Assembly (NCBI GenBank): GCA_016783485.1
Contig: JADHWM010000005.1
Coordinates: 1 to 49,057 of the forward strand
DNA from: Candidatus Bathyarchaeota archaeon
GTDB lineage: Archaea > Thermoproteota > Bathyarchaeia > TCS64
DNA: 49,057 bases
Direction of reading: 5' to 3'
A model generated the notes under the pieces. The model did not search any database. It had not been told where the DNA came from and saw only the letters and a program-made list of their open reading frames with translations. The translations under genes were made by a program, and so were the position numbers. Positions 10,111 through 48,263 of the stretch are shown in pieces (within the stretch, counting starts at the first letter, position 1; each line of letters begins with the position of its first letter).

Positions 10111-10113
10111 GCG

Positions 10114-24072: not shown

Positions 24073-24110
24073 GGAAACTGGAGAAAACATCGCCGGGTCT
24101 ACAAGACTCG

Positions 24111-24195
24111 CACGGAACCGTGAACATCCGAAATCCCTTATCATATGCCACCACTCACAACGACGGGCAGCGTTGGGTAGATTTGAGCCGTCGAC
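24111..24195 (-). repeat. tRNA-iMet 3' fragment with its flank (copy 2)
   Basis: 24165-24195 contains GGGTAGATTTGAGCCGTCGA, matching the T-arm and acceptor of the initiator tRNA. 24111-24162 resembles 38157-38207, the flank on the 3' side of the intact tRNA (for example CACCACTCACAA occurs in both). So the copy carries both tRNA and flank sequence. Confidence 0.6.
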
Positions 24196-24225
24196 ACTGA
24201 TGTCGTGAGCGCGAGTAGGCCGGCA

Positions 24226-25448
24226 TCAGATGTTTCGGGTCATCTCTCCTATTATCTGCAGTGTGCGGTCGATCTCGCGCTCGCTGTTGTAGATGTGGGT
24301 GCTGTATCTGACGCCCCTGTCCTCACGGAGCGCCCGGGGCTGTATCTTTCCCTTCCTCCAAAGCTCGTCCTGGAGCGCCTTGCCCTCGATCCCGTCTACC
24401 TTGAACGTGGTGAGCCCCGAGCTCATCTGCGGGTGCAATGGCGTGACCATCTCGACACTCTCCATCAGGCTCAGGCCCCGGCGTAGGCGGTCCCCCAGCT
24501 CCTTGATCCTCCCGTAGACTCTCTCCGGGCCGATCTCGAAGTGGAGGTCCAGGGCCGCCTCGAATCCCTTGAGCAGGGCGGGGTTCCCCGTTGTCCCAGC
24601 CGGTACCCGTTGTCCTCGTGGTTGTTCCACTGGGTGCTGGCCAGGGTGGTCCAGACCTCGTCGATGAGGGTCTCCTTCACGTATAGGAAGCCGTTCCCCG
24701 CCGGCGCCATCAGCCATTTGTGGGGGCTAGAGTAGTAGGCGTCGCAGCCTATCTCCCTCACGTCTATGGGGATGTGGCCCGTCGCCTGGGCTCCGTCGAT
24801 CACGGAGAGTATGCCGTTTTCTCTGGCAAGGCTGCATAGCTCCTTGACTGGGAGGATCATGCCCTGTTCCGATGAGATGTGGGGGAAGGACATGACGCGG
24901 GTCTCCGGCCTGATCGCCTTCTCGAAGGCCTCGACTATCCGTCCGGGGTCCTCCACGGGTATGGGTATCTCCGCCTTGCACAGCGTCGTCCCCCTCCGCT
25001 CGGCGAGGAGCTCCCAGCCGCATCGGCCCCCCGGGTGTTCGATGTCCGTGATCAGCACCTCCGAACCCGCGGGCAGGTCCAGGCCGTTGGCGAGGAGGTT
25101 CATGCCCATCGTCGCGTTCTGCGTGAGGGCGACGAGGGAGTGGTGGGCGTTGATCAGTTCGCCTATCTTCGTCCTCAGCTCCGTGTCAGGGGAGTATCCC
25201 GAGAGGAGGCTCATCCCTCCTCCGCTCCAGTCCACGTGGGCGACCTCGACCATGGATCTCACCGTGTGGCCGACCACGACGTGGAGCACCCGGAGGGGTG
25301 AAGCCCCGATGGTCCCGGTGTTGCAGTACGCCTCGTCGGGGGGCATCGGGAACTGCTCCCGGATCTTCCTCCAGTAGTCGGGGTCGTCGTGTGCGGGTAG
25401 CGGGGGGATTCTTCGATGAAGGGCTTCCCAAGGGAGTTCGTCAGGCAT
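24226..25448 (-). pseudogene. Class V aminotransferase (isopenicillin-N-epimerase-like), frameshifted
   Basis: Two overlapping frames together form a full-length class V PLP enzyme of about 407 residues. The first (ATG 25448) covers the N-terminal and PLP parts: TQNATMGMNLLANGL, ITDIEHPGGRCGW, VIDGAQATGHIPIDV, and SSPHKWLMAPAGNGFLYV with the Schiff-base Lys. At about 24583-24597, within NGYRLGQRGT, the frame changes, and the C-terminal part (GNPALLKGFEAALDLHFE) continues in another frame to the stop at 24226. The shift lies in a G/C run, so it may be real decay, programmed, or a sequence error. The promoter TATATAA at 25478-25484 would give a leaderless mRNA. Confidence 0.75.
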
Positions 25449-25477
25449 GTCGATCCGTTTCGAACCGTGAAGAGATT

Positions 25478-25484
25478 ATATAAA
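25478..25484 (-). promoter_or_regulatory. TATA box of the class V aminotransferase gene
   Basis: TTATATA on the minus strand lies about 30 bp before ATG 25448, the spacing expected for a leaderless archaeal transcript. Confidence 0.5.
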
Positions 25485-25584
25485 ATGTGTGTGGTTGTGT
25501 CTCCAATGTGTCTCTGGTTTTCATTTCCAAAACGTGTGTTGAGACCTGATTTCTAAATCATTATTCAAGGATAACAATTCTGTA

Positions 25585-25608
25585 TGGGGGGTAGATTTGA
25601 ACCACCCA
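25585..25608 (-). repeat. tRNA-iMet 3' fragment (copy 3)
   Basis: GGGGGGTAGATTTGAACCAC on the plus strand matches the acceptor/T-arm of the initiator tRNA. Similarity ends right after the T-stem. It lies between the class V aminotransferase and the M29-like gene. Confidence 0.6.
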
Positions 25609-25631
25609 TAAAGAGGCCTGGAATCGATGCC

Positions 25632-26669
25632 TTAGATCAGGAGCTTCCCCTTGTCGATGATGGGCACACCGTCGATCTCCACCCTCGGCTTCCTCAGCAC
25701 GATGTCCAGGTGAATGTTGCAGGGGACGGCGGGAGTGCACCCCCTGCCGTAGGCCACGTGGACGTTGCCGAGGCGTTTCTTCTCCTCCGAGAACTCCCCT
25801 GTCTCCCGGCAGAGGGGGTTGGTGCCCATGGCGAACTCCCCGAAGTTGTCGGCGTTGGGTATGTTCTCGATGAGCCAGCGGAACTTGTCCGCGTCCCCTC
25901 CCAGGCCGATGGTCTCCACATACTTGCCATCCTCCAGGATCAGCTTCAGCGGCTCCTTGTAGGCGTCCCAGGGGTAGTTGCCGTAGACCCCGGTGCTCTC
26001 CCGGACGTGGTTCATGGGCCCATCCACGACTATGACGCCGTTGGCGGAGCCCAGGACGGGGTAGATCTCGAACTCTCCGTCGGGGGTGCACCCCGATGTG
26101 CCCGGCTTGTCCGCCATGCCGGTGTAGTTGATGTTTCTCGCGCCTTTGACGCTGCATCGGAGGTCTGTGCCCAGCGGGCTGGTGCAGTGGACCTCTCCTT
26201 CGCCGTCCTCCACGTAGGGCCTCATCCGTTCCCCTATGTCGTGGAAGACCTTTGGGTCGCAGTCTGCGCCTCCCCCGGTCATGCTCCTCAGCGTCCTGCA
26301 CTCCAGGGTCATCCGCCGGGTCTTCTTGTCCTCCATCATCTGGGTGTACTCGGGGGGGACATCGGGGTAGAGGGAGTAACCCACGTCGATGAAGAGGTCG
26401 GTGGCTAACAGGGCTCTCTTGGCTATGTCGGTGAGGATTCTGGGGCTGGATTCGTCCATCCAGGCGTCCTGGACGAGGAGGTTCCATCGTGCGCCGGCCG
26501 CTGCGGCCGCCTGGGCGAGGGTCATGGACATCTCGAGCTCCGTCTTGGTGTCGGTGAGGATGAGCACTTCCTCGCCGGGTTTCACCGCGCACCGCTCGTT
26601 GATGATCTTGTGGGCGTACTTGGCCGCCTCGATCTTCGACCAGAATGGGGTTCCGCCCGCCATTGACAT
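25632..26669 (-). CDS. M29-like metallopeptidase/dioxygenase family protein
   Basis: A 345-residue protein of the M29 aminopeptidase (thermophilic leucyl aminopeptidase) superfamily. Seen segments are VKPGEEVLILTDTKTELEMS at the N-terminus, GGGADCDPKVF, EGEVHCTSPLGTDLRCSVKG, GLGGDADKFRWLIENIPNAD, NFGEFAMGTNP, and a His-containing VHVAYGRGCTPAVPCNIHLD. The same fold includes 2,5-dihydroxypyridine dioxygenase, so peptidase or dioxygenase activity is possible. ATG 26669 (MSMAGG) or ATG 26663 can start it. It lies alone between two tRNA fragments. Confidence 0.8.
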   Translation of the reverse strand: MSMAGGTPFWSKIEAAKYAHKIINERCAVKPGEEVLILTDTKTELEMSMTLAQAAAAAGARWNLLVQDAWMDESSPRILTDIAKRALLATDLFIDVGYSLYPDVPPEYTQMMEDKKTRRMTLECRTLRSMTGGGADCDPKVFHDIGERMRPYVEDGEGEVHCTSPLGTDLRCSVKGARNINYTGMADKPGTSGCTPDGEFEIYPVLGSANGVIVVDGPMNHVRESTGVYGNYPWDAYKEPLKLILEDGKYVETIGLGGDADKFRWLIENIPNADNFGEFAMGTNPLCRETGEFSEEKKRLGNVHVAYGRGCTPAVPCNIHLDIVLRKPRVEIDGVPIIDKGKLLI

Positions 26670-26990
26670 GGTGTTCAGTTAGTTATCTTCGATCGAGATA
26701 TAAGGCATGAAGGCGCCCCGAGGGCCAGTTTCAGGCACCGGAGACTAGGAACCGCCCCAACGTGAAAAACGAGGCATTCACGCATCATTATGCGGGCAAA
26801 AGTAGCCGGTGTAGATTTTAACCACCGACCTACAGGGATTTTGAAGCGTTTTTATAGGTTTTTTCCGACATTTGGCTTTTCTCATAGATAAGCTTCAATT
26901 GTGCGAGCATATTTGATGATCACCGTTTTCGATTTCTTCTTATCTGAGTAGCCATCTTGTATCGGGATTACCCTGAGTCTACTTGAGGGG
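26670..26990. other. Intergenic stretch between M29-like and MFS genes
   Basis: Apart from tRNA fragment copy 4 (26803-26831) I see no gene or hairpin here. The right half is AT-rich, with several possible TATA elements (for example TTTTTATAGG near 26849), any of which could serve the MFS gene. Confidence 0.5.
26803..26831 (-). repeat. tRNA-iMet 3' fragment (copy 4)
   Basis: The plus strand reads GTGTAGATTTTAACCACCGA then CCT, matching the T-arm and variable loop of the initiator tRNA with a few changes. The acceptor part (TAGCCGGT) is damaged. Confidence 0.55.
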
Positions 26991-28232
26991 ATGAGGGAGT
27001 TCTGGCGTACCCAGAAAACAAATTACAGGCTCATGATCGCCAGGGACAGCCTCACCATGTTCAGCGGCAGGCGCCCCATGGAGAGGGGCATGGGCGGCTA
27101 CGAGGGCATATTCCTCAGCCGCCTCGGCGCATCCGCATTGCAGATCGGTTACGTCAACGGCATCATAGGTCTCCTAAACGTGTTACTGGCAGTTCCAAGC
27201 GGCTGGCTCATAGACAGATCTAGCGATATCAGGCGGATCTACTTCGCCAGCTTTGCGCTGAGTCTCCCAGCCCTTCTAGCCCTGTACTTCACCACGGACT
27301 GGCGGATGTACTTGGGGGTGATGCTGCTTTACGCTGTGAGCATCAGCATCCAGCATCCGTCTCAACTCATCATGGACATAGACTCGATGGAGGACTCTTC
27401 GAGGGTCTCAGGGCTCGGGTTCCACAGGACGATTACGGCCATCGCGGGCGTCGCGTCTCCCATAGTTATAGCATACGCTGTCAACTTCTTCGGTGGACTG
27501 GATTCCGCTGACAGCATCAGACCGTTGTTTCTAGTCTTCTTCGCTGTGGACATCGTGATTCTATGCATCGTGACCCGCTACGCTGAGCGCGTTCACATCA
27601 AGAGGGAGGAGAAGAGCACTAACATCCTCGATGGCGTGAAGGCGGTCATCAATGGTCCGGCGCCTCTCAAGCTGCTTCTCATCAGTGAGGTCACCACTGT
27701 TTTCGCCATGCTCATGGTGACGCCGTTCAGGGGCATCTATCAGATCGACATAAAGATGGCGAGCATCTTCATCTTTGGCTGGATCGGCGTAGCTGAGCCC
27801 GCCATTGACATCTTCTTCAGCATGCCGTTGGCCAACCTCGTGGAGAGGTACGGAAGGAAGAAGACAGCGTACGTGGGACACGTATTCGGTATCCTCGCGA
27901 GGCTCGTCCTCGTCATCACGCCTGTGACCTTTCCCCAGATGCTCATCATGGTGAGCGTCCTCGGAAGCTTCGAGGGATGCCTCTACGTTGGCATGGACGC
28001 CTATAGCCAGGAAGCCATCCCCCAGAGAGTCAGGGGCAGCTACACGGGGCTCAAGAACCTCATCGTGGGTGTCACGGGCGTGCTCAGCCCGATAGTCGGC
28101 GGCTACATCTGGGAGCTGAACCCCGACCTGCTCTTCTGGGTTCCTGTCGCCCAGTGGAGCCTCATCGCCTTCCCTATACTGGTCGTCCTCATGAAGAGGT
28201 ACAGTGTAGACGGATACGTGTTGCCCCAGTAG
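26991..28232 (+). CDS. MFS transporter
   Basis: A 413-residue membrane protein with about 12 helices. The first half has a weaker MFS loop (SGWLIDRSSDIRRIY) and the second half NLVERYGRKKTAYVG. The N-terminus is basic (REFWRTQKTNYRLMIARD). An unusual feature is the stretch MFSGRRPMERGMGGYEGIFL in the first helix region. Substrate unknown. It lies alone between tRNA fragments 4 and 5, which suggests it is one cassette. Confidence 0.86.
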   Translation: MREFWRTQKTNYRLMIARDSLTMFSGRRPMERGMGGYEGIFLSRLGASALQIGYVNGIIGLLNVLLAVPSGWLIDRSSDIRRIYFASFALSLPALLALYFTTDWRMYLGVMLLYAVSISIQHPSQLIMDIDSMEDSSRVSGLGFHRTITAIAGVASPIVIAYAVNFFGGLDSADSIRPLFLVFFAVDIVILCIVTRYAERVHIKREEKSTNILDGVKAVINGPAPLKLLLISEVTTVFAMLMVTPFRGIYQIDIKMASIFIFGWIGVAEPAIDIFFSMPLANLVERYGRKKTAYVGHVFGILARLVLVITPVTFPQMLIMVSVLGSFEGCLYVGMDAYSQEAIPQRVRGSYTGLKNLIVGVTGVLSPIVGGYIWELNPDLLFWVPVAQWSLIAFPILVVLMKRYSVDGYVLPQ

Positions 28233-28280
28233 GGATTTCATCCGATGCACGTGCGCGATTATAATGGGTGTTCAAAACAA

Positions 28281-28322
28281 GGCAGATACATTTGAACCAG
28301 CCGACCTCGGGGTTATGAGCCC
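28281..28322 (-). repeat. tRNA-iMet 3' half, including anticodon arm (copy 5)
   Basis: The plus strand holds CCGACCTCGGGGTTATGAGC, which on the minus strand reads GCTCATAACCCC, the anticodon loop (CAT) and 3' stem of the initiator tRNA. The T-arm follows with point changes. Here homology runs from the acceptor to the anticodon stem, farther than in copies 2-4. Confidence 0.65.
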
Positions 28323-28417
28323 TAAAAAACGTGCATGGAAAAAGGGCGATGACGAAGTCGAGAAGAACTCTTTATCTTGAAGAACTTCTAGTCACCATGG
28401 AAGGTGAAAGGAAGAAG

Positions 28418-28588
28418 ATGAGATACCGAGTTTATCGATTCGATATAAAGATGACGAGGGACCAGGACAGGCTGGAGCGGTTCCTGAACAACCTGGAGGG
28501 CGAGGTCGTGACGATCATCCCCAACGTCACCCCCATGCCCGCCACATACGTGGACTTTTTGCTCATCGTAGAGAAAATAAAGGAATGA
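28418..28588 (+). CDS. Small conserved hypothetical protein
   Basis: A 56-residue protein with a compact alpha/beta look: YRVYRFDIKMTRDQDRLERF, LEGEVVTIIPN, and VDFLLIVEKIKE. I recall similar short archaeal proteins with the pattern 'LE.FLN.LeGEV..IiPNV', but no function. GGTGA at 28403-28407 suits ATG 28418; ATG 28397 and longer starts (28331) are possible. A TATA-like CTTTATCT at about 28367 agrees with a start in this area. It follows tRNA fragment 5 and precedes the ArsP cassette. Confidence 0.6.
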   Translation: MRYRVYRFDIKMTRDQDRLERFLNNLEGEVVTIIPNVTPMPATYVDFLLIVEKIKE

Positions 28589-28941
28589 TGCCAGAAGACA
28601 CCGCCAATCCTCGACGCCTCTCACCCAGTCCGTTTACACCGACAGAAAACACGAGTGCACGGAAACTATACGCCATTACCTCTGAAAAGCAGGCGTTTAC
28701 AAGGCACATTCCTAATTAAATCTCCATTATATTGTTCCGCTCACAAGAAGGATGGCATCGGGGGATATTGGGAAGGGGATTTGTGAAAGGAGACGATCCC
28801 GCTTCATTCGGGTCAATAATGAGCTATGTGAATATTTATATATTAGAATAATAGAATACATGAGATGTCCGCGATAATCCCGAAGGCACACCGAACTCAC
28901 CCCGGGGGCAAACGTGAACAAATCCACAGTAGGCCAAACAA
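28589..28941. other. Promoter region before the ArsP gene, otherwise empty
   Basis: No coding frame with family character is seen. The stretch is AT-rich and carries the operator-like element 28831-28848 with a TATA box. The ArsP leader would be roughly 70 nt long. Confidence 0.5.
28831..28848. promoter_or_regulatory. AT-rich operator/TATA before ArsP
   Basis: AATATTTATATATTAGAA includes the TATA box. Nearly the same sequence (AATATTTAAATATTTAGA) lies in the promoter of the ArsR-like gene (30628-30645, minus strand). Shared elements suggest both promoters are controlled by the ArsR-like repressor. Confidence 0.5.
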
Positions 28942-30012
28942 ATGACGGCAACGCTGATCAACGAGATGCTGGCGTCGGGGTTCGACACTCTGGTCGACTA
29001 CCTCACAGCCCACGTGCTCCTTTGCCTGATTCCCGCGTTCTTCCTATCCGGGGCGTTCAACGCGCTGATACCGACCCAAACAATACTCAGGTACATGGGA
29101 GAGGGAAAAGGAGCGGTCAAGAAGGGCGTAGCCTACATCTTCGCATCCACGAGCGGCCTCATAATCGAGGTCTGCTCGTGCACGATACTGCCCCTCTTCG
29201 CAGGGATCTGGAAGAAGGGGGCGGGGTTCGGGCCTGCGATCGCTTTCCTCTTCGCGGGTCCGGGGATCACCCTGCTGTCAACTCCGCTGACCGCGTCGAT
29301 ACTCGGCCCGGGGTTCGCAGTGATCAAACTGGGGATCTCGATAGTCATGGCTATCGCGATCGGCTTGGCGATGGAGCTAACGTTCAGGGAGGTGGCGGAC
29401 CCTGAGGCCAGGAAGGGGTTCGCAACAGTTGAGGCCGGAGAGTCGGCGGGGAGGAAGAACCACGAGTCCGCACTCTTCTTCGGGGCGCTCACACTCATCA
29501 TGGTCGCCGGCACTGCGCCCATAGATCTGACCTTGAAGCTCGTACTGGTGGGCTCCTTTTCCCTCGTCACGGCGTTCTTCGCCTTCAGGTATTATGCCAG
29601 GGGGGAGATCGATGCGTGGATGCGGGAGACCTACGAGTTCATGAAGATGATCTTCCCCGTGCTGCTGCTGGGGGTCTTCGCGTCGGGGGTCCTGAAGCCC
29701 CTGATTCCCCAGGAGCTGGTGGCTAACCTTACGGGCCGGAACACCCTCGTCGCCAATGCGATTGCCGCGCTCTTCGGGACGGTGGCGTATTTCCCGACCC
29801 TCGTGGAGGTCCCCGTCGCCAAGATGTTCCTCGAGATGGGGATGCACAGCGGACCCCTGATGAGCTACCTCCTGGTGGACCCGGGGGTGTCGCTGCAGAC
29901 GCTGCTGGTGGTGAACACCATCATCGGGCCGAGGAGGACCCTCATGTACGCCGTCTACATGCTGGGCTTCGGGATCATCGCTGGATATATGTATGGAATG
30001 TTCCTTGTGTGA
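28942..30012 (+). CDS. ArsP-type permease (PF03773 family)
   Basis: A 356-residue permease with about eight or more membrane helices. The signature EVCSCTILPLFAGI holds the paired Cys found in the ArsP/PF03773 family. A second-half repeat is seen near GTVAYFPTLVEVPVAKM. Known ArsP proteins export trivalent methylated or aromatic arsenicals; others in this family are uncharacterised. It is followed by a thioredoxin-like gene overlapping the stop and then by a convergent ArsR-type repressor, which supports a metalloid-response cassette. The exact substrate is inferred. Confidence 0.85.
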   Translation: MTATLINEMLASGFDTLVDYLTAHVLLCLIPAFFLSGAFNALIPTQTILRYMGEGKGAVKKGVAYIFASTSGLIIEVCSCTILPLFAGIWKKGAGFGPAIAFLFAGPGITLLSTPLTASILGPGFAVIKLGISIVMAIAIGLAMELTFREVADPEARKGFATVEAGESAGRKNHESALFFGALTLIMVAGTAPIDLTLKLVLVGSFSLVTAFFAFRYYARGEIDAWMRETYEFMKMIFPVLLLGVFASGVLKPLIPQELVANLTGRNTLVANAIAALFGTVAYFPTLVEVPVAKMFLEMGMHSGPLMSYLLVDPGVSLQTLLVVNTIIGPRRTLMYAVYMLGFGIIAGYMYGMFLV

Positions 30013-30020
30013 GGATGAAG

Positions 30021-30254
30021 ATGATGAAGATAGAGGTACTCGGATCAGGCTGCCCCAAATGCCGCAAGCTGGAGGCCATGGTGAGAGAAGCCGTGGCGAA
30101 GCACGGATTAGAGGCAGAGGTCACCCACGTCTACGACATGGCCAAGATATTGAAGTACGGAGTCATGTTGACGCCCGCCCTCGTCGTGGACGGGGAGCTG
30201 AAGACCTCGGGCAAGCTACCGTCAGAGGCGGAGCTGCTCAAGGCCCTCGGATAG
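30021..30254 (+). CDS. Small redox-active thioredoxin-like protein
   Basis: A protein of about 77 residues with a thioredoxin/glutaredoxin fold and the active site GSGCPKCRKLE (CxxC), followed by TPALVVDGELKTSGKLP containing the cis-Pro. It belongs to the redox-active disulfide protein 2 type. GAGG at 30011-30014 suits ATG 30021, but GTG 30009, ATG 30015 and ATG 30024 are also in frame. It follows the permease gene directly and is a common partner of PF03773 permeases, perhaps keeping their Cys reduced. Confidence 0.85.
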   Translation: MMKIEVLGSGCPKCRKLEAMVREAVAKHGLEAEVTHVYDMAKILKYGVMLTPALVVDGELKTSGKLPSEAELLKALG

Positions 30255-30265
30255 ACAGCTGAGAG

Positions 30266-30613
30266 CTAGCTCAACCCATATTTTTTCGCGATCTCCCTGC
30301 CCACCAGTTCGATCATGTTCTCGTCGATGGCGTCGATCATGTTGTAGATGTGGGGATCGACCGTCGTGTAGAATATCTTGGTGCCTTCCTTGGAGGAGAC
30401 GATCAGCCCCGACTCCTCCAGGAGCCGGAGGTGTCTGGAGACCGTGGGTTGGCTTTGGCCGATGAGGGGTATGATCTCGCACTGGCATCTGTCCCCCGCC
30501 CTCAGTATCTCGAGTATCTTGAGGCGGTTGGGGTCGCCGACGACCTTGAAGAGCCTCGCCTTGAACTCTAGGTCCTTCTCGTCGGGCAGGACTGTACTCG
30601 TGTTCAACGTCAT
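30266..30613 (-). CDS. ArsR-family winged-helix repressor
   Basis: A 115-residue repressor. The winged helix is clear: ARLFKVVGDPNRLKILEILR and then QSQPTVSRHLRLLEESGLIV as recognition helix. A CxC pair (DRCQCEI) lies in the helix before it, in the place where arsenic-type ArsR proteins bind metalloid. ATG 30613 with AGAGGTC upstream is the likely start; the frame runs to 30670. It converges with the thioredoxin gene and shares an operator-like sequence with the ArsP promoter, so it probably represses both itself and the permease until metalloid is present. Confidence 0.87.
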   Translation of the reverse strand: MTLNTSTVLPDEKDLEFKARLFKVVGDPNRLKILEILRAGDRCQCEIIPLIGQSQPTVSRHLRLLEESGLIVSSKEGTKIFYTTVDPHIYNMIDAIDENMIELVGREIAKKYGLS

Positions 30614-30627
30614 GACCTCTGGAACAT

Positions 30628-30645
30628 CTAAATATTTAAATATTA
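30628..30645 (-). promoter_or_regulatory. AT-rich operator/TATA of the ArsR-like gene
   Basis: The minus strand reads AATATTTAAATATTTAGA, close to the ArsP promoter element at 28831. It overlaps the TATA box and lies 15-32 bp before ATG 30613. Confidence 0.5.
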
Positions 30646-30744
30646 ATTTATCTTCTTCGGGAGAATACAAGCGGGTTTCTGAAAAAGAGACATAGATTCA
30701 CGTAGGTTTTAATCGCACGTCCTATGACGGTGACCTTGACAGCC

Positions 30745-30864
30745 CTCGTCCTCACCCTCATACGGCGCCACTGGTTCCGGTTGGTCGGGGCTAACAATCC
30801 ATGTTTTTATCCACATTTCACCGGTTCTGGGTCAAACCCATCATACGAATGGTGCCGGGGGGGT
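30745..30864. repeat. Direct repeat, left copy, bordering the HTH-nucleotidyltransferase block
   Basis: About 120 bp that recur at 31987-32107. The last 47 or so bases, ending in ATGGTGCCGGGGGGG, are identical by eye; the rest differs at scattered bases. A T-arm-like element (GGGTCAAACCC) is inside. The two copies enclose the block 30865-31986. Confidence 0.75.
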
Positions 30865-30888
30865 AGATTTGAACTACCGACCTTGGTT
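30861..30888 (-). repeat. tRNA-iMet 3' fragment (copy 6, least diverged)
   Basis: This stretch is identical by eye over 28 bases to the intact tRNA (GGGTAGATTTGAACTACCGA and on to CCTTGG). The identity suggests this copy is the youngest or was recently homogenised. It continues the left direct repeat. Confidence 0.75.
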
Positions 30889-30911
30889 TTTTGGACTCAG
30901 GCTTCAACTAT

Positions 30912-31451
30912 CTATACGTTTCTTATCATATGGAGTTGAGCCCAGACGCCGGCTCTCCCCGCGCGCTCCCTCAGATAGGGCCAGTCCAATGTGACGTCTT
31001 CTCTCTCGAGGACGCTCTTGACGTCCTGCTCATCGATGACGCCCCGGTCGGACCTAGCCAGCTTGGTGACGATATAGTCCTCGGGGGATACCATCCACAC
31101 CTCGACCCCCGCCAGGGTCGCTTTTCGGCGTCTCCTCAGGGTCTCATCGTCCCAGACCACACCGTCGGGTTGCCTCCAGATCTCTATCTCGTAGTCGGTG
31201 AGTCTGTCGTGGAGGAGGCACACGGGGTTCTGGAACGATCCGAGTGATACTCCATAGTCCGCCCGCTCAGTCCCCTCGAGGAACCGGGTGAAGCTCTCCT
31301 CCGTAGTTAAAGCGGCGGCGACGTCTATGTCCAGGGTCGTCCTTATCCTGCCGTACATGGGGAGGACGTATCCCCCGATGAGCATGTAGTCGATTCCCTG
31401 ATCCTCTAAGAAGGATACCAATCTGTCAAGGGTCTCTGCGATCTCCGACAA
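30912..31451 (-). CDS. Nucleotidyltransferase-fold protein (DUF6036/MNT-like)
   Basis: A 179-residue protein with the nucleotidyltransferase signature LIGGYVLPMYGRIRTTLDID: a Gly-Gly followed by a D-x-D pair. A third acidic position may lie in YEIEIW. Proteins of this type occur as toxins in toxin-antitoxin and abortive infection systems, where they transfer nucleotides to tRNA or protein. The start is TTG 31451, inside the upstream HTH gene, which it overlaps by 26 bp. The pair is enclosed by direct repeats and tRNA fragments. The toxin role is inference. Confidence 0.75.
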   Translation of the reverse strand: MSEIAETLDRLVSFLEDQGIDYMLIGGYVLPMYGRIRTTLDIDVAAALTTEESFTRFLEGTERADYGVSLGSFQNPVCLLHDRLTDYEIEIWRQPDGVVWDDETLRRRRKATLAGVEVWMVSPEDYIVTKLARSDRGVIDEQDVKSVLEREDVTLDWPYLRERAGRAGVWAQLHMIRNV

Positions 31452-31827
31452 TTCCGTTCAACTCCAGAAACGCCCGATAGGGGTCCCGTCCCCGGGCGAT
31501 GAGCCGGTTCACATACTCCGCGTCAGCCCTGGCCCTGAGGAGGTCGTTCCTGCTGCTCCTCAGGGGCATTCTCCTCAGCCGGTGGAACGCCTCCAGGTAG
31601 CCCTCGCCGAGGATTGAAGCCGAGACGATCCGCGCCGGCCTGCCCCTTCCAGCCCCTCTTTCCAGCGTCACATCTACGAGACCCCCGGCCTCCATCCTCT
31701 TGATCAACGAGACCACAACTTGGGTCCGCCTCCGCATGGCCCTTGATAGCTCCGTCACACCTAGGGATCTCTCTTTGACCGCGCTGAGCAGCTGCGCCTC
31801 CACCTCGACGGACAATATATTTCCCAT
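31426..31827 (-). CDS. Winged-helix DNA-binding protein, partner of the nucleotidyltransferase
   Basis: A 133-residue protein. The N-terminal winged helix is AVKERSLGVTELSRAMRRRT followed by QVVVSLIKRMEAGGLVDV. A basic tail (LRRMPLRSSRNDLLRARAD) follows. It overlaps the nucleotidyltransferase by 26 bp. ATG 31827 lies about 35 bp after a TATA-like element (GTTTAAATATGG, minus strand, near 31861-31872). It is probably an autoregulating antitoxin or regulator of the pair; no family name is certain. Confidence 0.7.
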   Translation of the reverse strand: MGNILSVEVEAQLLSAVKERSLGVTELSRAMRRRTQVVVSLIKRMEAGGLVDVTLERGAGRGRPARIVSASILGEGYLEAFHRLRRMPLRSSRNDLLRARADAEYVNRLIARGRDPYRAFLELNGIVGDRRDP

Positions 31828-31899
31828 CCGGAAACTTAATCACAAGGAACAGAGCAGGAACCATATTTAAACATTTTCAACGCAAAAACGGCGAGAAAT

Positions 31900-31990
31900 C
31901 ACACCGAACAGAAAACAACCGGGAACCCTTATCCTACGCTACCACTCACATCAAATGGTAAATAGGGGTAGATTTGAGCCACCGACCTCG
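31900..31990 (-). repeat. tRNA-iMet 3' fragment with its flank (copy 7)
   Basis: 31924-31988 aligns without large gaps to 38212-38276, that is the intact tRNA's T-arm/acceptor plus its 3' flank (shared AACCCTTATCCTA, AATGGTA and GGGGTAGATTTGA). Because flank and tRNA travel together, this copy arose by integration or duplication including the tRNA's downstream DNA. Confidence 0.7.
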
Positions 31991-32107
31991 TCCTCACCCT
32001 CATCCGGCGCCACAGGTTCGGGTTGGTCGGGACCAACAAGTCATAGTTTACTCCACAATTCACCGGTTCTGGGTCAAACCCATCATACGAATGGTGCCGG
32101 GGGGGGG
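31987..32107. repeat. Direct repeat, right copy, bordering the HTH-nucleotidyltransferase block
   Basis: Partner of 30745-30864. It joins directly to tRNA fragment copy 7, so the block boundary falls in the T-arm/variable-loop part of the tRNA sequence (CCGACCTCG). Confidence 0.75.
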
Positions 32108-32150
32108 TGGAGTTCGAACCCAATATCAGGCGGTGATGTCGCCGTTTCGT
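32094..32150 (-). repeat. Second type of T-arm-like repeat (copy a)
   Basis: Minus strand: GGCGACATCACCGCC, then GGGTTCGAACTCCACCC and a C run. It pairs a near-palindrome with a TTCGAA T-loop-like motif. Copies b (33456-33500) and c (33950-33995) share the layout. The source is not identified. Confidence 0.5.
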
Positions 32151-32167
32151 GACGTTCGTCTACGGGT

Positions 32168-33232
32168 CTAGTATCCTTGCTCGGTCTTCATGAACTCCCT
32201 GAGCAGGGTCGTGGCGAAACCGCCCTTGTGAAGCATGAACGAGAGCTGGACCCCCCGGGGAGCCTCGGTCACCTCGATCCTGGGCGTCAGCCTGCCGAAA
32301 CGACGGGTGCCGGTGACCCTCATGCGCCTGAACGTCTCCAGGGATATCTCGGATTCCTCGAGTATCTCGGCTTCGAGGGCGGCTGCCTCGCCCAGAGCCT
32401 GGGACATCTTGTGCCCGTATATGGGGGCCGTGAAGCTGATCTCCTGGGCTTCGTACCGGGGCTGCTCGGTCAAGGGGTCGTTCACCCAGAATAAGCCGCC
32501 CGTCTCATGCTTCTTAGCTATGTCACCCAGCAGCAGCCTGTCGAAGAGGCCGCGCCCCATCCTCTCGGCCAGGTACCTGTTGCAGAGGTAGCTCCTGTAC
32601 ACCGAGACCAGGAGCTTGCTGAGCCACCTGTCGGTGAACGTCTTCCGCCCTTGAAGAATCGCCCAACCATCCCGCACTTTCTCGCCGTCGTTCCCAATTC
32701 TCTGCTCGCCGTAATAGTTGGGCAGCCCTTTCAGGTGAATCGTTTCGGCTATCCTCCTCGACCTCTCCGCGGCCTGGCTCGGGGGCATGCGTGTGTCAGT
32801 GATCGTTATTTTGAACCTGTTGCCTATGAGGTGCCCCGCCCTGAGCTTGTTGCCGTGGAGCTTGGCCCAGTTCACATCGACGTTCAGGCTGCCCTCGATG
32901 AGCGCAGATGCGTCGTCGGGGCGCACGTCGTTCTTCTCGAAGAGTATGCTGAACGTCTGCGTGGTCACGGCGTGCTTGTCTTTGAGCCCCGCGGTGCCTA
33001 TGCTCTGGGGTCCGAGGTTGAAGAGGTCCGCCAGCTGGAGCTGCACGTCCCGGGTGGTCTGATTCCTCTTGGTTATGTTGACGTAGAGGTGACTCCCGGA
33101 GCCCGAGGGCTCGTAGAGGGCGACCTCTTCGACCATGAAATCCTCGGGGCGTGCCCTGATCCTGCCCCCTATGCCCTCCAGGTCCGCGGTGAGGTATGGG
33201 AGAGACAGGTCGAGGAGCGGCGGCTTGATCAT
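32168..33232 (-). CDS. truD: tRNA pseudouridine synthase TruD
   Basis: A 354-residue TruD enzyme that makes pseudouridine 13 in tRNA. The catalytic motif is GTAGLKDKHAVTTQ with Asp85. Other TruD segments are IRARPEDFMVEEV at the N-terminus, LPNYYGEQRIGNDG, and GHKMSQALGEAA near the inserted TRUD domain. The archaeal length fits. ATG 33232 is the natural start (MIKPPLLDLSLPY). It is the one clear housekeeping gene inside the tRNA-fragment array, which is unexpected, and lies between type-2 T-arm repeats. Confidence 0.93.
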   Translation of the reverse strand: MIKPPLLDLSLPYLTADLEGIGGRIRARPEDFMVEEVALYEPSGSGSHLYVNITKRNQTTRDVQLQLADLFNLGPQSIGTAGLKDKHAVTTQTFSILFEKNDVRPDDASALIEGSLNVDVNWAKLHGNKLRAGHLIGNRFKITITDTRMPPSQAAERSRRIAETIHLKGLPNYYGEQRIGNDGEKVRDGWAILQGRKTFTDRWLSKLLVSVYRSYLCNRYLAERMGRGLFDRLLLGDIAKKHETGGLFWVNDPLTEQPRYEAQEISFTAPIYGHKMSQALGEAAALEAEILEESEISLETFRRMRVTGTRRFGRLTPRIEVTEAPRGVQLSFMLHKGGFATTLLREFMKTEQGY

Positions 33233-33233
33233 T

Positions 33234-33658
33234 CTGTGATGGTTCCCGCCTGGGTTCTTGAAGGGTTCTCTTTCGCTGATTAATTGGGTGAGGGTAGGGG
33301 AAAAAGCGGGGAAAATAACCCCAAAACCCCTTCCTCGGGATATAGTGCTGTGGGGTGGGTTAAATGGGTTGCGAATAAAGTTGGGAAGGGCATGGATGCA
33401 CGTGCCTCATAGACACTGGTTTTGAGAGCCATAATCATCCAATGGTTGTCTGAGAATGCGGGGGTTTGGTTCGAACCCTACCGCTAGTGGTAATGTCACC
33501 ATCTCTATTTTTCAATCTAATATTTTATCCTCACTTCATCGCAATAGTAACATGGACTAAAGATGGTTGGACACCATCTGATGCGATGAGCGTCATCATC
33601 GATTGATAGATTTATCAGTTATCAACTTCGATCAGTCTATGAGGCGATTGAATTGGGT
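33234..33658. other. Intergenic stretch upstream of TruD
   Basis: It holds the type-2 T-arm-like repeat b (33456-33500) and a TATA-like TAGATTTATC near 33606, which could drive the small basic ORF at 33659. I see no other gene. Confidence 0.45.
33456..33500 (-). repeat. Second type of T-arm-like repeat (copy b)
   Basis: Minus strand: GGTGACATTACCAC, then GCGGTAGGGTTCGAACC and AAACCCCCGCA. It resembles copy c closely and also faintly the iMet T-arm. Confidence 0.5.
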
Positions 33659-33733
33659 ATGCGTAGTGCTAAGAAGAAACCTTTGACCAAGAAGGAAAGG
33701 GCAGAAAAAAGAAAAAAGCGTAAAGAGAAATGA
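33659..33733 (+). CDS. Very small Lys/Arg-rich protein
   Basis: A 24-residue frame, MRSAKKKPLTKKERAEKRKK then RKEK and stop. More than half of the residues are basic, which recalls nucleic-acid-binding tails. A TATA-like TAGATTTATC lies about 50 bp upstream, but there is no strong Shine-Dalgarno motif. It may be a real short protein or a chance A-rich frame. Confidence 0.35.
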   Translation: MRSAKKKPLTKKERAEKRKKRKEK

Positions 33734-33949
33734 GCGGTGAAGTGAAATGCCCCCTTGCGGTCACTCAGCGCATCAACGCGAGAAGCCTGCTTTTTGTTCT
33801 CAGAATTCATGGACATTGGGGGAGGTCTGGCCGCGTTTGTTATCGTCGAGGCGTTCCGCGCTCGGCTCGACGAAGGACGCTTTCCATCGAGTAGAGACTG
33901 CGGTTATACTTGAAAAATCGGGGTTATAGGTTGAACCCCGCTGGTCTCC

Positions 33950-33995
33950 TGACCGGGGATTGGGTCGAACCCTGCTGCCGGTGGTGATGTCACCT
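33950..33995 (-). repeat. Second type of T-arm-like repeat (copy c)
   Basis: Minus strand: GGTGACATCACCACC, GGCAGCAGGGTTCGACCC, then AATCCCCGG. The 12-base element GGTGACATCACC is a perfect palindrome except for its central CA. Confidence 0.5.
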
Positions 33996-34100
33996 GACAA
34001 TTCCCTTTTGTTATCCATCTTTTTCGTGTTGCATGCGTTTCATAGTAAATTTATTTATTCAGGTAAATTCGCTGGTTCAAACCTAGAAGTGAAGGCAAGG

Positions 34101-34141
34101 AGGCGGGGGGGTAGATTTGAACCACCGACCTCGAGGATATG
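34101..34141 (-). repeat. tRNA-iMet 3' half (copy 8)
   Basis: GGGGGGTAGATTTGAACCAC, then CGACCTCGAGGATATGA on the plus strand. The first part is the acceptor and T-arm; the second corresponds to the anticodon stem and loop with changes (ATATGA for TTATGA). Confidence 0.65.
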
Positions 34142-34295
34142 ATCTTTACGGTTGGATTGATTCATGTTGTTTTCCAGTTCTATCATTGGGAAGGCCAGCA
34201 TTACATACGATATTATGTGATCTGGACTTTGTCAGATCCCATTCCATAACATTGTCCAAGGATACAAATACCGAGAAAACATACTTTGGATCATC

Positions 34296-35048
34296 ATGAG
34301 AAACCTGCTCAAAGAAAAACTCCGCAAAGGAGGAAACGCCGTAGGAACCTTCATCGAACTCGGGCACCCTGACGTGGCCGAGATTCTCAGCCACAGTGGG
34401 TTCGACTGGCTGCTGATCGATGGGGAGCACAGCCCCATGGGGTTCGAGACCATGGAGCGTATGCTTCAAGCCATGGCGGGTACGGACTGCACGCCGATCA
34501 TCCGGCCCCAATGGAACGATCCCGTCATCATCAAACGTGTGCTGGACCTCGGGGCGCATGGGATCGTCGTGCCCTGGGTGAACACGGAGGAGGAAGCGGA
34601 GGCGGCGGTTAGTGCGGCGAGGTATCCGCCGGAGGGCATCAGGGGCTGGGGTCCGAGGAGGGCGTCGAGATGGGACCCCGATTACAGGGACACCGCCAAC
34701 GAGGAGATTCTCGTGGCCGTTCAGGTCGAGACGCAGATGAGCCTGGATAACCTCGATGCCATCATGGGGGTCGATGGAGTTGATGCCTGTTACGTCGGTC
34801 CCTGGGACCTGAGCAACAATCTCGGGTTCAGCGTTCCCCCTGACTACGATAACAAGGCTTTCACCGATGCCATCGAGTACGTGCTCGGAGTGGCTGCTGA
34901 TCACGGCAAGCCTGCGGGTATGTGGTGTAACCTCGATAATGTGGGCTGGGCCGTGGGGAAGGGGTTCAGGTTCAACACGGTCATCGACGCGGATACGATG
35001 CTGGCGTATGGCGCCGCTGAGGCCGTGAAACGGGGAAGGGGAGACTGA
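34296..35048 (+). CDS. HpcH/HpaI-family aldolase
   Basis: A 250-residue TIM-barrel class II aldolase of the HpcH/HpaI family, which cleaves 2-keto-4-hydroxy acids to pyruvate and an aldehyde using a divalent metal. Seen segments: VGTFIELGHPDVAEIL, DWLLIDGEHSPMGFE (His near the substrate), GAHGIVVPWVNTEEEAE, GIRGWGPRRASRW, VAVQVETQMSLDNLD with the metal Glu, and VDACYVGPWDLSNNLG with the metal Asp. ATG 34296 is close to the predicted transcription start. It lies between tRNA fragment 8 and repeat R1. Confidence 0.88.
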   Translation: MRNLLKEKLRKGGNAVGTFIELGHPDVAEILSHSGFDWLLIDGEHSPMGFETMERMLQAMAGTDCTPIIRPQWNDPVIIKRVLDLGAHGIVVPWVNTEEEAEAAVSAARYPPEGIRGWGPRRASRWDPDYRDTANEEILVAVQVETQMSLDNLDAIMGVDGVDACYVGPWDLSNNLGFSVPPDYDNKAFTDAIEYVLGVAADHGKPAGMWCNLDNVGWAVGKGFRFNTVIDADTMLAYGAAEAVKRGRGD

Positions 35049-35096
35049 TCCTCCCTCATATGTGAGGGCCCCCCAGTTTTCCCCGTGTCTTCCTCG

Positions 35097-35215
35097 TGCG
35101 CAGCTATCAGTGAATGAGGCGCGTGCACAGTTGGTTTTTTATACGCGTTTTATTTGCCCCTCAATAATTCAAGGGAGCCCGTTACGGAACCAGATAACAC
35201 TGAAACCAGATATGC
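35097..35215. repeat. Direct repeat R1, left copy, bordering the Trx-CcdA cassette
   Basis: GTGCGCAGCTATCAGTGAAT, then GAGGCGCGTGCACAG, a T-rich stretch with TATACGCGTTTTATTTGCCC, and TTCAAGGGAGCC. The same order recurs at 36892-37012 with few differences. GTGCGC and GCGTGCAC near the left end form an imperfect dyad. Confidence 0.8.
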
Positions 35216-35288
35216 ATCCACACGGACAGATTGGAACCTTATCCAACAAACCCAGAATATTTAATAAACTAAATATATTGATAGAGTA

Positions 35289-35561
35289 ATGCTTCAGGGG
35301 TCAACGAGAGTGAACCAGTCAAATAGAATATATACACAGAAACTAAACAAAATACTCGCGCGGCGTGCGCGCGAACCCGTATTATTGAGAGCTTCACCTG
35401 CGTATGGAATACTGTCGGCTTGTAAGAATAATGACCCTGATCTTCTAATTCTGGATAGAGGTAACAGAAGGTTCACTGTGTTTGGCTTAGGTAGTGATGT
35501 TTGGTCTCAGGTTCGAAGAGGATGCCATAAGCCATTACTAGAATTAAAGAAGGTTAACTAA
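35289..35561 (+). CDS. Hypothetical protein in the Trx-CcdA cassette
   Basis: A 90-residue frame with no recognised domain. Notable segments are ILARRAREPVLLRASPAYGI and DLLILDRGNRRFTVFGLGSD. It ends one base before the GTG of the thioredoxin-like gene, which supports co-translation. Composition is AT-rich like the next two genes. A TATA-like AATATTTAATAAACTAAATA lies just upstream (near 35255-35275). Confidence 0.5.
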   Translation: MLQGSTRVNQSNRIYTQKLNKILARRAREPVLLRASPAYGILSACKNNDPDLLILDRGNRRFTVFGLGSDVWSQVRRGCHKPLLELKKVN

Positions 35562-35562
35562 T

Positions 35563-36135
35563 GTGAATAACAAATACTTACTCCTAGGTATCGGCATTAT
35601 AGCTATACTCTTAGCCAGTTTTGTATTCATAAACGGAAATAACCAAAACAAAGGGGCTGACTCAGACTCAAATAATGTGAATGATGACTCTTTCGCCAGT
35701 CCCGTGTTTAAGTTAGTAGACCTTCGAGGCGTCGAGTATCGTTTAACAGATTATAAAGGAACCCCAGTATTAGTGCATTTTATGGCGGTATCATGCGGAG
35801 GCGAATACTCTGACCTGAATGATAACCAGCTTAAACAGATGAAAATACTATGCGATACTCTCTGCAATGAAGATAAAATAACCATGTTTACCGTTCTTGT
35901 ATCAACCTGTGAAACAACTGATCTGTCTCAACTCTATAACATGTATAATATTACCTGGATTATGGGAAATGATTATCAGGATAACAAGCTTGACGTGATA
36001 GAGATATTCAGCGAATATGAGCCAGAGGATGGGCTGATAATCCTAATGGATCAAGAGCATGTGGTTAAAGACGTCATAAAGGGAAGTATCTCAGCCAAGA
36101 CGCTTGTTGATGAAATATTTCAATTAGGGGGCTAA
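35563..36135 (+). CDS. Membrane-anchored thioredoxin-like (TlpA/SCO-type) protein
   Basis: A 190-residue protein with an N-terminal membrane helix (YLLLGIGIIAILLASFVFI) and an outward-facing thioredoxin-like domain: PVFKLVDLRGVEYRLTDYKG, then TPVLVHFMAVSCGGEYSDLN where TlpA/SCO proteins have their CxxC or CxxxC. Here only one Cys is at that place (SCGGE), while other Cys occur later (LCDTLCNED, VSTCETTD). The partner Cys may therefore be elsewhere, or the protein may not be a standard oxidoreductase. GTG start at 35563. It directly precedes a CcdA-like gene, the usual electron donor of such proteins. Confidence 0.75.
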   Translation: MNNKYLLLGIGIIAILLASFVFINGNNQNKGADSDSNNVNDDSFASPVFKLVDLRGVEYRLTDYKGTPVLVHFMAVSCGGEYSDLNDNQLKQMKILCDTLCNEDKITMFTVLVSTCETTDLSQLYNMYNITWIMGNDYQDNKLDVIEIFSEYEPEDGLIILMDQEHVVKDVIKGSISAKTLVDEIFQLGG

Positions 36136-36139
36136 CAGG

Positions 36140-36826
36140 ATTCTCTACCTAAGTTTATTCATTTATGGTCTAACGACATTCATCTCGCCATGCTCTATAG
36201 GATTAGTCACGGCTTATCTGACCTACACAGTTAAAGACGCATCCACTAGAAGTCATGCGCTCCTCGTCGGGTTATGCTATATGTCAGCCATGGGCCTTGT
36301 GTTTTTTATCTTTGGGTACGCTTTATCCTCCCTCATACCCGTAAATCTTGCTTCGGGTAAACTGTTTTACGGCTTGGCGGGTATTTTGATGATAATTCTC
36401 GGGGGGAATACCCTTGGATTGTTGGAAAAGTTTGAACCCCTACAAGCATTAATCTTCAAAATATCTGATGGCTCAGACAGCATTAGATCTGGTTTAATGT
36501 CTAGAGTTGGTGGAGGTAATGTTTTCATTAGCGCATTTGTTTTCGGGGTTGTCATATCTATTGCTCTCGGTCCCTGTTCTCTGGCACTGGTCTTGCCCGC
36601 CGTTATGATGACATTATTTAATGCTCCTTCTGCGGTTCACGGTGGGTTACAACTGTTTGCTTTTGGCATCGGGCATGGCGTACCTGTTTTATTGTTGAGC
36701 GTGCTCGTTTCCGAGACAAGATTTCTGCTCAGTAAAAAGCTCGTAAAAATCGGAGGAGCGTTAAATTACCTCGTTGGATCAGGGTTAATTTTACTGGGTC
36801 TATGGTTAATCTTAGAGGCTTTATAA
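36140..36826 (+). CDS. ccdA: CcdA/DsbD-type thiol-disulfide transmembrane protein, unusual start
   Basis: A 229-residue membrane protein with about six helices and the two CcdA Cys motifs: LTTFISPCSIGLVTAY in the first helix and SIALGPCSLALVLPAV in the fourth. It moves electrons from the cytoplasm to outward-facing thioredoxins such as the one just upstream. The first canonical start is ATG 36281, which would remove the first SPC motif. The frame is open back to 36128 without ATG, GTG or TTG, so translation must begin at ATT 36140 (AGGGGG lies 8 bases upstream), or arise by a +1 frameshift from the preceding gene at AGGGGGC. Confidence 0.75.
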   Translation: MLYLSLFIYGLTTFISPCSIGLVTAYLTYTVKDASTRSHALLVGLCYMSAMGLVFFIFGYALSSLIPVNLASGKLFYGLAGILMIILGGNTLGLLEKFEPLQALIFKISDGSDSIRSGLMSRVGGGNVFISAFVFGVVISIALGPCSLALVLPAVMMTLFNAPSAVHGGLQLFAFGIGHGVPVLLLSVLVSETRFLLSKKLVKIGGALNYLVGSGLILLGLWLILEAL

Positions 36827-36891
36827 TTAGGGGGGTACTAGGTGCATTTTTGTTATCTTATTTTTTAGAAATGATTTCTTTTTTACTCGCA

Positions 36892-37012
36892 CGTGCGCAG
36901 CTATCAGTGAATGAGGCGCGTGCACAGTCGGTTTTTTATACGCGTTTTATTTGCCCCTCAAATATTCAAGGGAGCCTGTTACGGAACCACAGAACAATGA
37001 AACCATCCACAA
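36892..37012. repeat. Direct repeat R1, right copy
   Basis: Partner of 35097-35215, running into sequence that also resembles 37970-38030 next to tRNA copy 10 (shared AACCATCC and AACAACTGGTAGCGG further on). So R1 is the normal 3' flank of the tRNA fragments. Confidence 0.8.
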
Positions 37013-37046
37013 ACATCCCACTAACATACAGGGGGAGAGCAACAAC

Positions 37047-37090
37047 TGGTAGCGGGAAGTAGATGTTTATTACCGTCCTTGGGGCGCGCG
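37047..37090 (-). repeat. tRNA-iMet 3' fragment (copy 9, degraded)
   Basis: TGGTAGCGGGAAGTAGATGT then TTATTACCGTCCTTGGGG. It keeps the encoded CCA (TGG), the acceptor start and parts of the T-arm. It shares the preceding flank AGAGCAACAAC with copy 10. Confidence 0.6.
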
Positions 37091-37107
37091 CCTTGAACCA
37101 AGAGGGT

Positions 37108-37878
37108 TTAAAGGAAATCTCTTCGTCCGCCGTCGACCAGGAGGATTTTTCCGGTGATGTATCTCGATTCATCGCTTGCGAAGAATAGCACAGCGTTGGC
37201 GATGTCTTCGGGGGTGCCGGTCATCCCCAGAGACGACGCGTCTCTCCTTCCCTCGAGCACCTTCTCGTATTCATCATCGCTCCGGTTCCCCCTCAGCATG
37301 ACCGTGTCAACTGCTCCAGGTGCGACGCAATTGACGTTGATGTTATGTCTTCCGAGCTCGAAGGCTGAGCTTTTGGTGAGCTGTATCACGCCTGCTTTCG
37401 AGACGGCGTAGCTGTTATCGCCGGGCATGGCTATGCCGAACCCGGAGTTGGAGGAGATGTTCACTATCTTCCCGTAATTCCTCTCTATCATGTGCCTCGC
37501 GGCTATCTGGGTGCAGAGGAAGACGCCCTTGAGGTTGATCTCCATGTGCTTATCCCATATCTCGTCGGTGGTCTCGAGCAACGAGGCTCCAATCGCTATC
37601 CCCGCATTGTTGACGAGAATATCGACCTTGTCGAACTCGTCTACCGTGGCGGTGAACATGTTCTCCACCTCCTCCCTTTTCGAGACGTCGCATCTGACGG
37701 CGATAGCCTTCCCGCCCATCTGCCTGATGGAGTTAACGACCTCCTCCGCTTCGTCTCGGCTCTTACTATAATTGATGGTTACTGCGCATCCGCATCTCGC
37801 GAGAGCTAATGCGATAGATCTCCCAATACTACGGGAAGACCCAGTTACGACCGCTACCTTATTCGTGAAATCAAACAC
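37108..37878 (-). CDS. Short-chain dehydrogenase/reductase (FabG-like)
   Basis: A 256-residue SDR. The cofactor loop is TGSSRSIGRSIA, the NNAG motif is ILVNNAGIAIG, and the catalytic Ser-Tyr-Lys are in VNISSNSGFGIAMPG and NSYAVSKAGV. A C-terminal YITGKILLVDGG is typical of the FabG type. The substrate is not readable. It is the only gene between tRNA copies 9 and 10, which makes it a one-gene cassette. The sequence upstream of ATG 37878 is AT-rich and suits a promoter. Confidence 0.9.
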   Translation of the reverse strand: MFDFTNKVAVVTGSSRSIGRSIALALARCGCAVTINYSKSRDEAEEVVNSIRQMGGKAIAVRCDVSKREEVENMFTATVDEFDKVDILVNNAGIAIGASLLETTDEIWDKHMEINLKGVFLCTQIAARHMIERNYGKIVNISSNSGFGIAMPGDNSYAVSKAGVIQLTKSSAFELGRHNINVNCVAPGAVDTVMLRGNRSDDEYEKVLEGRRDASSLGMTGTPEDIANAVLFFASDESRYITGKILLVDGGRRDFL

Positions 37879-38034
37879 TCCAAATCACTTTTCCTAAAGA
37901 GATAATTGGTTATTAAATAAGTTATATTGGCTTTCTCTAAGAGCGCGCGCGAATAGAATAAGTCTATACAGAGCCAGATAACGATAAAACCATCCCAAAA
38001 CACCCCAACAACAAACAAAGGGGAGGGCAACAAC

Positions 38035-38093
38035 TGGTAGCGGGGGGTAGATTTTAACCATCGACCTCGGATATGAGCCCCACGGGTCAACCC
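38035..38093 (-). repeat. Degraded tRNA-iMet copy, longest (copy 10)
   Basis: It runs from the encoded CCA (TGG) through acceptor, T-arm, variable loop and anticodon arm (GGATATGAGCCCCACGGG on the plus strand) into part of the D-arm, with mutations in the T-loop (TTTTAAC) and anticodon stem. The 5' acceptor strand is absent, so it is a pseudo-tRNA. Confidence 0.75.
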
Positions 38094-38246
38094 ATCATTA
38101 AACCATCAGAAAACACGGAACAGAGAACCCCACGACCCACAAACCACAGACATTCACACGGAACACTGAACACCAGAAAACCCTCATCATACACCACCAC
38201 TCACAAGCCCCAGAACCCTTATCCTAAGCCAGCCGCACGAGAATGG
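38094..38246. repeat. 3' flank of the intact tRNA, with internal duplication
   Basis: No gene seen. 38157-38207 and 38212-38243 look like two successive versions of one flank (AACCCTCATCATAC and AACCCTTATCCTAA). Related sequence stands next to tRNA copies 2 and 7. Confidence 0.55.
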
Positions 38247-38321
38247 TAGCGGGGGGTAGATTTGAACTACCGACCTTGGGGTTATGAGCCCCACGGGCTA
38301 ACCTGGCTGCCCTACCCCGCT
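38247..38321 (-). tRNA. Initiator tRNA-Met (CAT), CCA encoded next to it
   Basis: A complete cloverleaf of 75 nt. Acceptor AGCGGGG pairs with CCCCGCT. The D-stem is GGGC/GCCC with loop AGCCAGGTTA. The anticodon stem is TGGGG/CCCCA with loop CTCATAA (anticodon CAT). The T-arm is GGTAG-TTCAAAT-CTACC and the discriminator is A. The A1-T72 pair and the GGG/CCC pairs next to the anticodon loop are marks of archaeal initiator tRNA. The plus-strand TGG at 38244-38246 encodes CCA directly after it. It is the intact reference for the ten or so degraded copies to its left, and it lies at the right end of the array, facing away from the rnp4-dphB-ribL operon. Confidence 0.93.
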
Positions 38322-47954: not shown

Positions 47955-48263
47955 TCCATCGACAAAGATTCGTGGATCACTATTCACGAGGAGGACCGAA
48001 GAACCCGCCCCTCGGAAAAATAGGATCGAGCATCCACACACGAAAACACAACCAAACACCGGAAGGAACCCGAAAAACACCCGGAAACACCCTCCATCAA
48101 CCCCTCAAGCAAGACAGTGACTATTCAGTAGTAAAACTAGCAATACAACTCCAAAAGAAGACAGAAAACCCCCCCTTCATCACATATGCGGAGTCCTCGC
48201 CACCCCAAGCCCTCTAATACCCCCACCACACCCTAGAACAACGAACCAGACGAGGAGAAGAAC
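47955..48263. other. Intergenic stretch holding repeat R2, left copy
   Basis: Apart from R2 (48052-48136) I see nothing. An 81-codon frame at 47972 has no family character and reads through the repeat. Confidence 0.5.
48052..48136. repeat. Direct repeat R2, left copy, bordering the VOC gene
   Basis: CCAAACACCGGAAGGAACCC, then CCTCAAGCAAGACAGTGACT and ATTCAGTAGTAAAAC. It recurs at 48799-48884 with few changes; the first 32 bases recur at 41421-41452. Confidence 0.8.

Follow-up and report, generated by a model that had tools for sequence, protein, structure and literature searches.

A probable horizontally acquired thioredoxin–CcdA cassette framed by a 114-bp direct repeat in the tRNA-Met fragment array of a bathyarchaeon

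Integrons and tycheposons are cassette platforms in which short gene units accrete at one anchored place, and ResA/TlpA and CcdA constitute thiol-redox pairs, which function in cytochrome c maturation in Bacillus. Archaeal and bacterial elements integrate at the 3′ ends of tRNA genes, including as arrays at one site; in archaea, these tRNA-gene-targeted elements have tyrosine-recombinase att sites (PMC8371274; PMC6563490). For Bathyarchaeia, published work on genomic islands reports regions of lateral origin as well as a provirus, and the text consulted contains nothing on an array of tRNA-Met fragments.

The locus described here has features of each of these systems. It lies in a 49,057-nt stretch of Candidatus Bathyarchaeota archaeon DNA (contig JADHWM010000005.1, here C90; hereafter, the window), from an assembly of 2.13 Mb in 116 contigs that is about 70% complete. 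In the window, an AT-rich gene pair for a membrane-anchored thioredoxin-like protein (Trx) and CcdA is located between two copies of a direct repeat, R1, within an array of tRNA-Met fragments (Table 1). Like the archaeal tRNA-gene-targeted elements, the array displays tRNA 3′ fragment scars, re-use of one site and unoccupied sites in relatives; unlike them, it consists of units of one to three ordinary genes with no recombinase found, and the Trx–CcdA block, which has no att copy on its left, is bordered by a non-tRNA repeat of 114 bp (PMC8371274; PMC6563490). The accretion of short gene units at one anchored place also resembles integrons and tycheposons, whereas here the anchor is the tRNA-Met fragment array and no integron integrase was found beside it on contig C90. 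The general kind of locus is already known; the repeat arrangement and the CcdA partner lacking CxxC are variants.

The explanation considered probable here is that a redox cassette was acquired horizontally and inserted, with a local duplication of 114 bp, into a tRNA-Met accretion island. This is supported by the composition of the cassette, its absence from a congener, the occurrence of R1 only twice, the patchy distribution of the pair and the near-identity of the ccdA stretch in two relatives, the array itself, the ResA-like predicted fold of Trx and the DsbD_TM assignment of CcdA. Counting against it are the lack of any recombinase found, the left end without a tRNA fragment, and the search of catalogued plasmids, phages and IMG/VR, in which R1 and the Trx–CcdA pair had no match except for one IMG/VR contig with a ccdA relative.

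Table 1. Positions in the window of the cassette, its repeats and the neighbouring features (G001, a congener)
Feature	Position	Strand	Remark
HpcH/HpaI aldolase gene, left neighbour	34296..35048	+	adjoins SDR in G001
R1, left copy (R1L)	35095..35208	+	initial 32 bp are the HpaI gene 3′ flank, common to G001
Block missing at the orthologous G001 site	35127..37085	.	82 bp of R1L, cassette, R1R, linker, tRNA fragment
ORF1, 90 aa	35289..35561	+	resembles C-terminal part of USP-type proteins; probable remnant (weak)
Membrane-anchored thioredoxin-like gene, 190 aa	35563..36135	+	ResA-like predicted fold; C-G-G-E for CxxC
ccdA-like gene (DsbD_TM)	36134..36826	+	SPCS and GPCS motifs intact; expected start site without canonical codon
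R1, right copy (R1R)	36892..37005	+	self-match
Linker, R1R to tRNA fragment, 41 bp	37006..37046	+	homologous to flank of next tRNA fragment (37967–38034)
tRNA-Met 3′ fragment, 38 nt, 82%	37047..37084	-	right block end
Short-chain dehydrogenase (SDR) gene, right neighbour	37108..37878	-	adjoins HpaI in G001
Intact tRNA-Met(CAT), array anchor	38244..38321	-	one intact copy

The block between the R1 copies (35209–36891; 1683 bp) has a GC content of 40.5%. Its genes have a GC3 of 0.38–0.44, compared with 0.70–0.89 in the nearby HpaI, SDR, TruD and RNase P genes, and none of 113 sliding windows of 1.68 kb along the contig is lower in GC or farther in tetranucleotide use than the cassette, in agreement with the preliminary description, which had stressed a composition sharply unlike that of the neighbours. 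As the region at 42–47 kb of the contig is nearly as AT-rich, AT-richness by itself is not unique to the cassette. A donor of lower GC, probably a bathyarchaeon, would have supplied the AT-rich pair by horizontal transfer; proteins of the window are about 30–46% identical to known relatives, which counts against naming that donor.

R1 is a direct repeat of 114 bp, corrected from the previous estimate of about 120 bp, and its copies are identical at 107 of 114 positions (94%; seven mismatches) with a self-match E-value of about 1e-45, far outside chance. Nearly identical repeats around an AT-rich block of about 1.7 kb had been recognized from the outset. R1L and R1R are the only copies in the whole assembly, and a search of 60 related genomes returned just weak, chance-level matches of 18–29 bp. 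The full-length RNA fold on either strand is no better than that of shuffled sequences (z −0.1 to −0.6). Because of the two assembly copies and the fold at the shuffled level, R1 is neither a dispersed repeat or promoter nor a structured RNA, the two alternatives against which the preliminary description had set its own proposal. R1 could also be a regulatory element such as a terminator or promoter whose double occurrence is incidental, as both copies sit downstream of a plus-strand gene and each has a short stem followed by a T-run; this is most improbable, since the fold and the copy number in 2.1 Mb also argue against it and the similarity over 114 bp far exceeds a short motif. Other repeated features noted in the window include two adjacent paralogues of 554 aa each at 8446–11775, with DNA up to 79% identical, and direct repeats of 107 bp at 48031–48137 and 48778–48884, which share 87% identity and to which a piece at 41414 is related.

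Comparison with G001, a congener about 90% identical to the window genome (G000), reveals how the cassette is placed. Window positions 34193–35126 align to 12803–13735 of G001 locus L089, and 37086–37943 to 13734–14596; the window flanks thus abut at L089 13734–13735, where HpaI and SDR are immediate neighbours. The HpaI–SDR junction of G001 is therefore an unoccupied site, and is not itself a tRNA site. We infer that the block was gained in G000 rather than lost in G001, although a deletion between GCGCG tracts could also yield the G001 state. In that alternative, the G000–G001 ancestor already had the block, which was deleted in G001 between short GCGCG tracts; these tracts are found at the G001 junction as well as at the two junctions in the window, and a single deletion would explain the missing tRNA fragment too. 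Such a loss is unlikely, as none of the three congeners has homologues of the pair (whose occurrence in 60 relatives is patchy) and the pair keeps its foreign composition; an earlier horizontal gain would be compatible with it.

The G001 comparison also bears on the origin of R1. The initial 32 bp of R1, together with the preceding bases, are the HpaI 3′ flank that is also present in G001. R1 thus spans an older junction and R1R starts with a copy of local sequence. This speaks against R1 being an end peculiar to an imported element, and favours either a duplicated target segment or recombination by crossover at R1. In the preferred explanation, insertion between the HpaI and SDR genes, in an island grown beside tRNA-Met by repeated integration, would have duplicated the 114-bp R1 segment spanning the older array junction. 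The preferred route would be homologous recombination at R1, for example single-crossover integration of a putative 1797-bp circle with one R1.

The array contains about 10 partial tRNA-Met 3′ copies, all on one strand, at 21818–38092, alongside one intact tRNA-Met gene. No tRNA-Met fragments were found on the other contigs of the assembly, and similar fragments surround tRNA-Met in G001, G003, G013 and others. Genes among the fragments include those for TruD, permeases, hydrolases, an aldolase and a nucleotidyltransferase. The array regions of G000 and G001 are mostly collinear, with insertions or deletions at many tRNA fragments. An MFS transporter unit at 26798–28322, with tRNA-Met fragments on both sides, is placed in G001 adjoining tRNA-Met itself (L089 17746–19268). 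These features fit repeated integration at the tRNA 3′ end. Also within the array, a cluster of genes for a permease (ArsP_1), a small thioredoxin and an ArsR-type regulator (28942–30670) is kept in G001, and a second pair of direct repeats of about 120 bp, termed D6 (30739–30863 and 31981–32105; 90%), encloses a nucleotidyltransferase and HTH gene pair, each repeat running into a tRNA 3′ end. Alternating CG-type tracts are seen at several module junctions (35116, 36888, 37084 and 37943); these are not claimed as junction markers, as relatives have such tracts in ordinary AT-rich intergenic DNA too. Several tRNA genes are followed by a conserved sequence around GTGCGGCTGGCTTAGGATAAGGGTT (38205–38240), which also lies dispersed over the genome (contigs C32, C42, C65, C30, C60 and C25).

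At the right end of the block, R1R is followed by the linker and then by the tRNA-Met 3′ fragment, and 36980–37067 matches 37967–38055 at 80%; the continuation of the right R1 copy into a tRNA copy, and the resemblance of its outer part to the flank of the next one, thereby hold as originally described. At the left end, no tRNA fragment comes after R1L, so matching att copies at both ends are lacking. The sequence to the right of R1L was considered as a degenerate tRNA flank; the similarity is suggestive and is not claimed, being equalled by 18–69 of 1000 shuffles in comparison with the better flanks and by 232–460 with the others. The proposal that the cassette belongs to the tRNA-linked array therefore stands as to its location inside the array, the linkage through R1R and the absence from G001; a tRNA fragment at the right end alone does not establish tRNA-directed recombination as the route of entry.

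Recombinase genes were found neither between the R1 copies nor among the scanned array ORFs; Phage_integrase has no match on contig C90, a single match in the assembly (contig C81) and three in G001. These results are relevant to the possibility that a specific integrative element carries Trx–CcdA and inserts site-specifically near the tRNA, R1 being its attachment or terminal repeat. Such an element would account for 114-bp direct repeats at both ends, for R1R adjoining a tRNA-Met fragment and for the nearby D6 repeats likewise running into tRNA 3′ ends. It is nevertheless quite unlikely, given that R1 begins with the HpaI 3′ flank common to G001, that no recombinase was found, that R1 is in none of the other genomes searched, and that other loci of the pair have neither R1 nor a tRNA-Met fragment (see below).

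The preliminary description had counted three genes in the cassette, the first hypothetical; the membrane Trx-like protein and CcdA are upheld, whereas the first ORF falls outside the conserved set. ORF1 weakly resembles the C-terminal part of USP-type proteins of 155–163 aa, and its match to Pfam Usp covers the C-terminal part only (14.2 bits), below the cut-off of 24 over the full domain. Judged from this resemblance, it is probably a truncated USP remnant.

The Trx and CcdA proteins are comparable with ResA/TlpA–CcdA pairs in that the genes are adjacent, a membrane anchor is combined with a thioredoxin fold, and CcdA has two conserved cysteines. The predicted model of Trx (mean pLDDT 72.5, pTM 0.70; N-terminal 42 residues poor) has a helix at residues 5–21 as an N-terminal membrane anchor and a thioredoxin fold, for which ResA gives the best Foldseek matches (E about 1e-9, TM by target about 0.8); its NCBIfam ResA score of 25 bits is below the cut-off of 170. 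Unlike in ResA/TlpA, the active site is not CxxC: the expected site reads CxG(Q/E), without the second cysteine, in all 11 aligned Trx family members, in which Cys78 and three further cysteines, forming CxxxC (Cys97, Cys101) and a later Cys116, are invariant. CcdA scores 35.3 bits against the DsbD_TM profile, above the cut-off of 27.1, and its conserved cysteines, in SPC and GPC motifs, are present in alignment A1. CcdA might thus send electrons across the membrane to the anchored ResA-like thioredoxin, and Trx would act in extracytoplasmic thiol transfer, supplied by CcdA and using a different arrangement of cysteines. The ccdA open frame begins AAC AGG ATT (36134–36142), the ATT being 8 nt past GGGGG, and the first ATG, GTG or TTG is at codon 50 of the frame, whereas all 10 complete relatives have one of these codons at the matching start place. 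The missing canonical start may reflect a non-canonical start, a lesion or an assembly error.

Several lines of comparative evidence point to mobility of the pair. With an alignment as query, CcdA was found in 11 Bathyarchaeota MAGs, and Trx is directly upstream in all 10 whose contig extends far enough. The GC content of the pair is 42–46% in every MAG, even in G017, where the remaining contig has 61%. Between G013 and G017, which belong to the family of the window genome, identity reaches 97.3% over the 732 bp of the ccdA stretch, whereas it is 68–75% at other shared loci; the match stops about 40 bp past the ccdA stop codon, the right end alone being seen because the G017 contig begins inside ccdA. 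Such an identity, ending just past ccdA, indicates that the pair moves horizontally. Whether R1 travels with the gene set had been raised as a check, and it does not do so elsewhere: none of the 11 other pair loci has R1 or a tRNA-Met fragment, and ORF1 is likewise missing. The Trx–CcdA pair thus moves among lineages independently of the tRNA-Met island.

The surroundings of the pair vary among the loci. In G013, the pair flanks (L134 3393–4121 and 5763–5852) are sequences repeated at many places of that genome, and a 69-bp repeat around the pair forms part of repeats dispersed there. G055 carries this pair, clustered with DGC-domain, GcvH-like and small thioredoxin-like genes (L086 6198–10501), and a separate conventional CxxC Trx–CcdA pair. 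The IMG/VR contig (L140 1–3890) begins inside a ccdA relative, which is followed by a small thioredoxin gene, and has a terminase-like gene on the opposite strand.

A broader and more doubtful idea, put forward tentatively, is that an island anchored at tRNA-Met serves Bathyarchaeia of this family for gene capture. Its units, each of one to three genes with tRNA-Met fragments and short flank repeats at the borders, would be gained, lost and moved by a recombinase acting in trans; the island would be an archaeal counterpart of cassette arrays, Trx–CcdA being one captured cargo. For an uncultured archaeal class, the locus is a concrete example of gene capture for which a congener has an unoccupied site, and the G013–G017 comparison adds a second, independent transfer of the pair between distant relatives. 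The pair also represents a CcdA-linked thioredoxin family without CxxC, in which one cysteine at the nucleophile position, a CxxxC motif and a further cysteine make up a chemistry that is open to direct testing.
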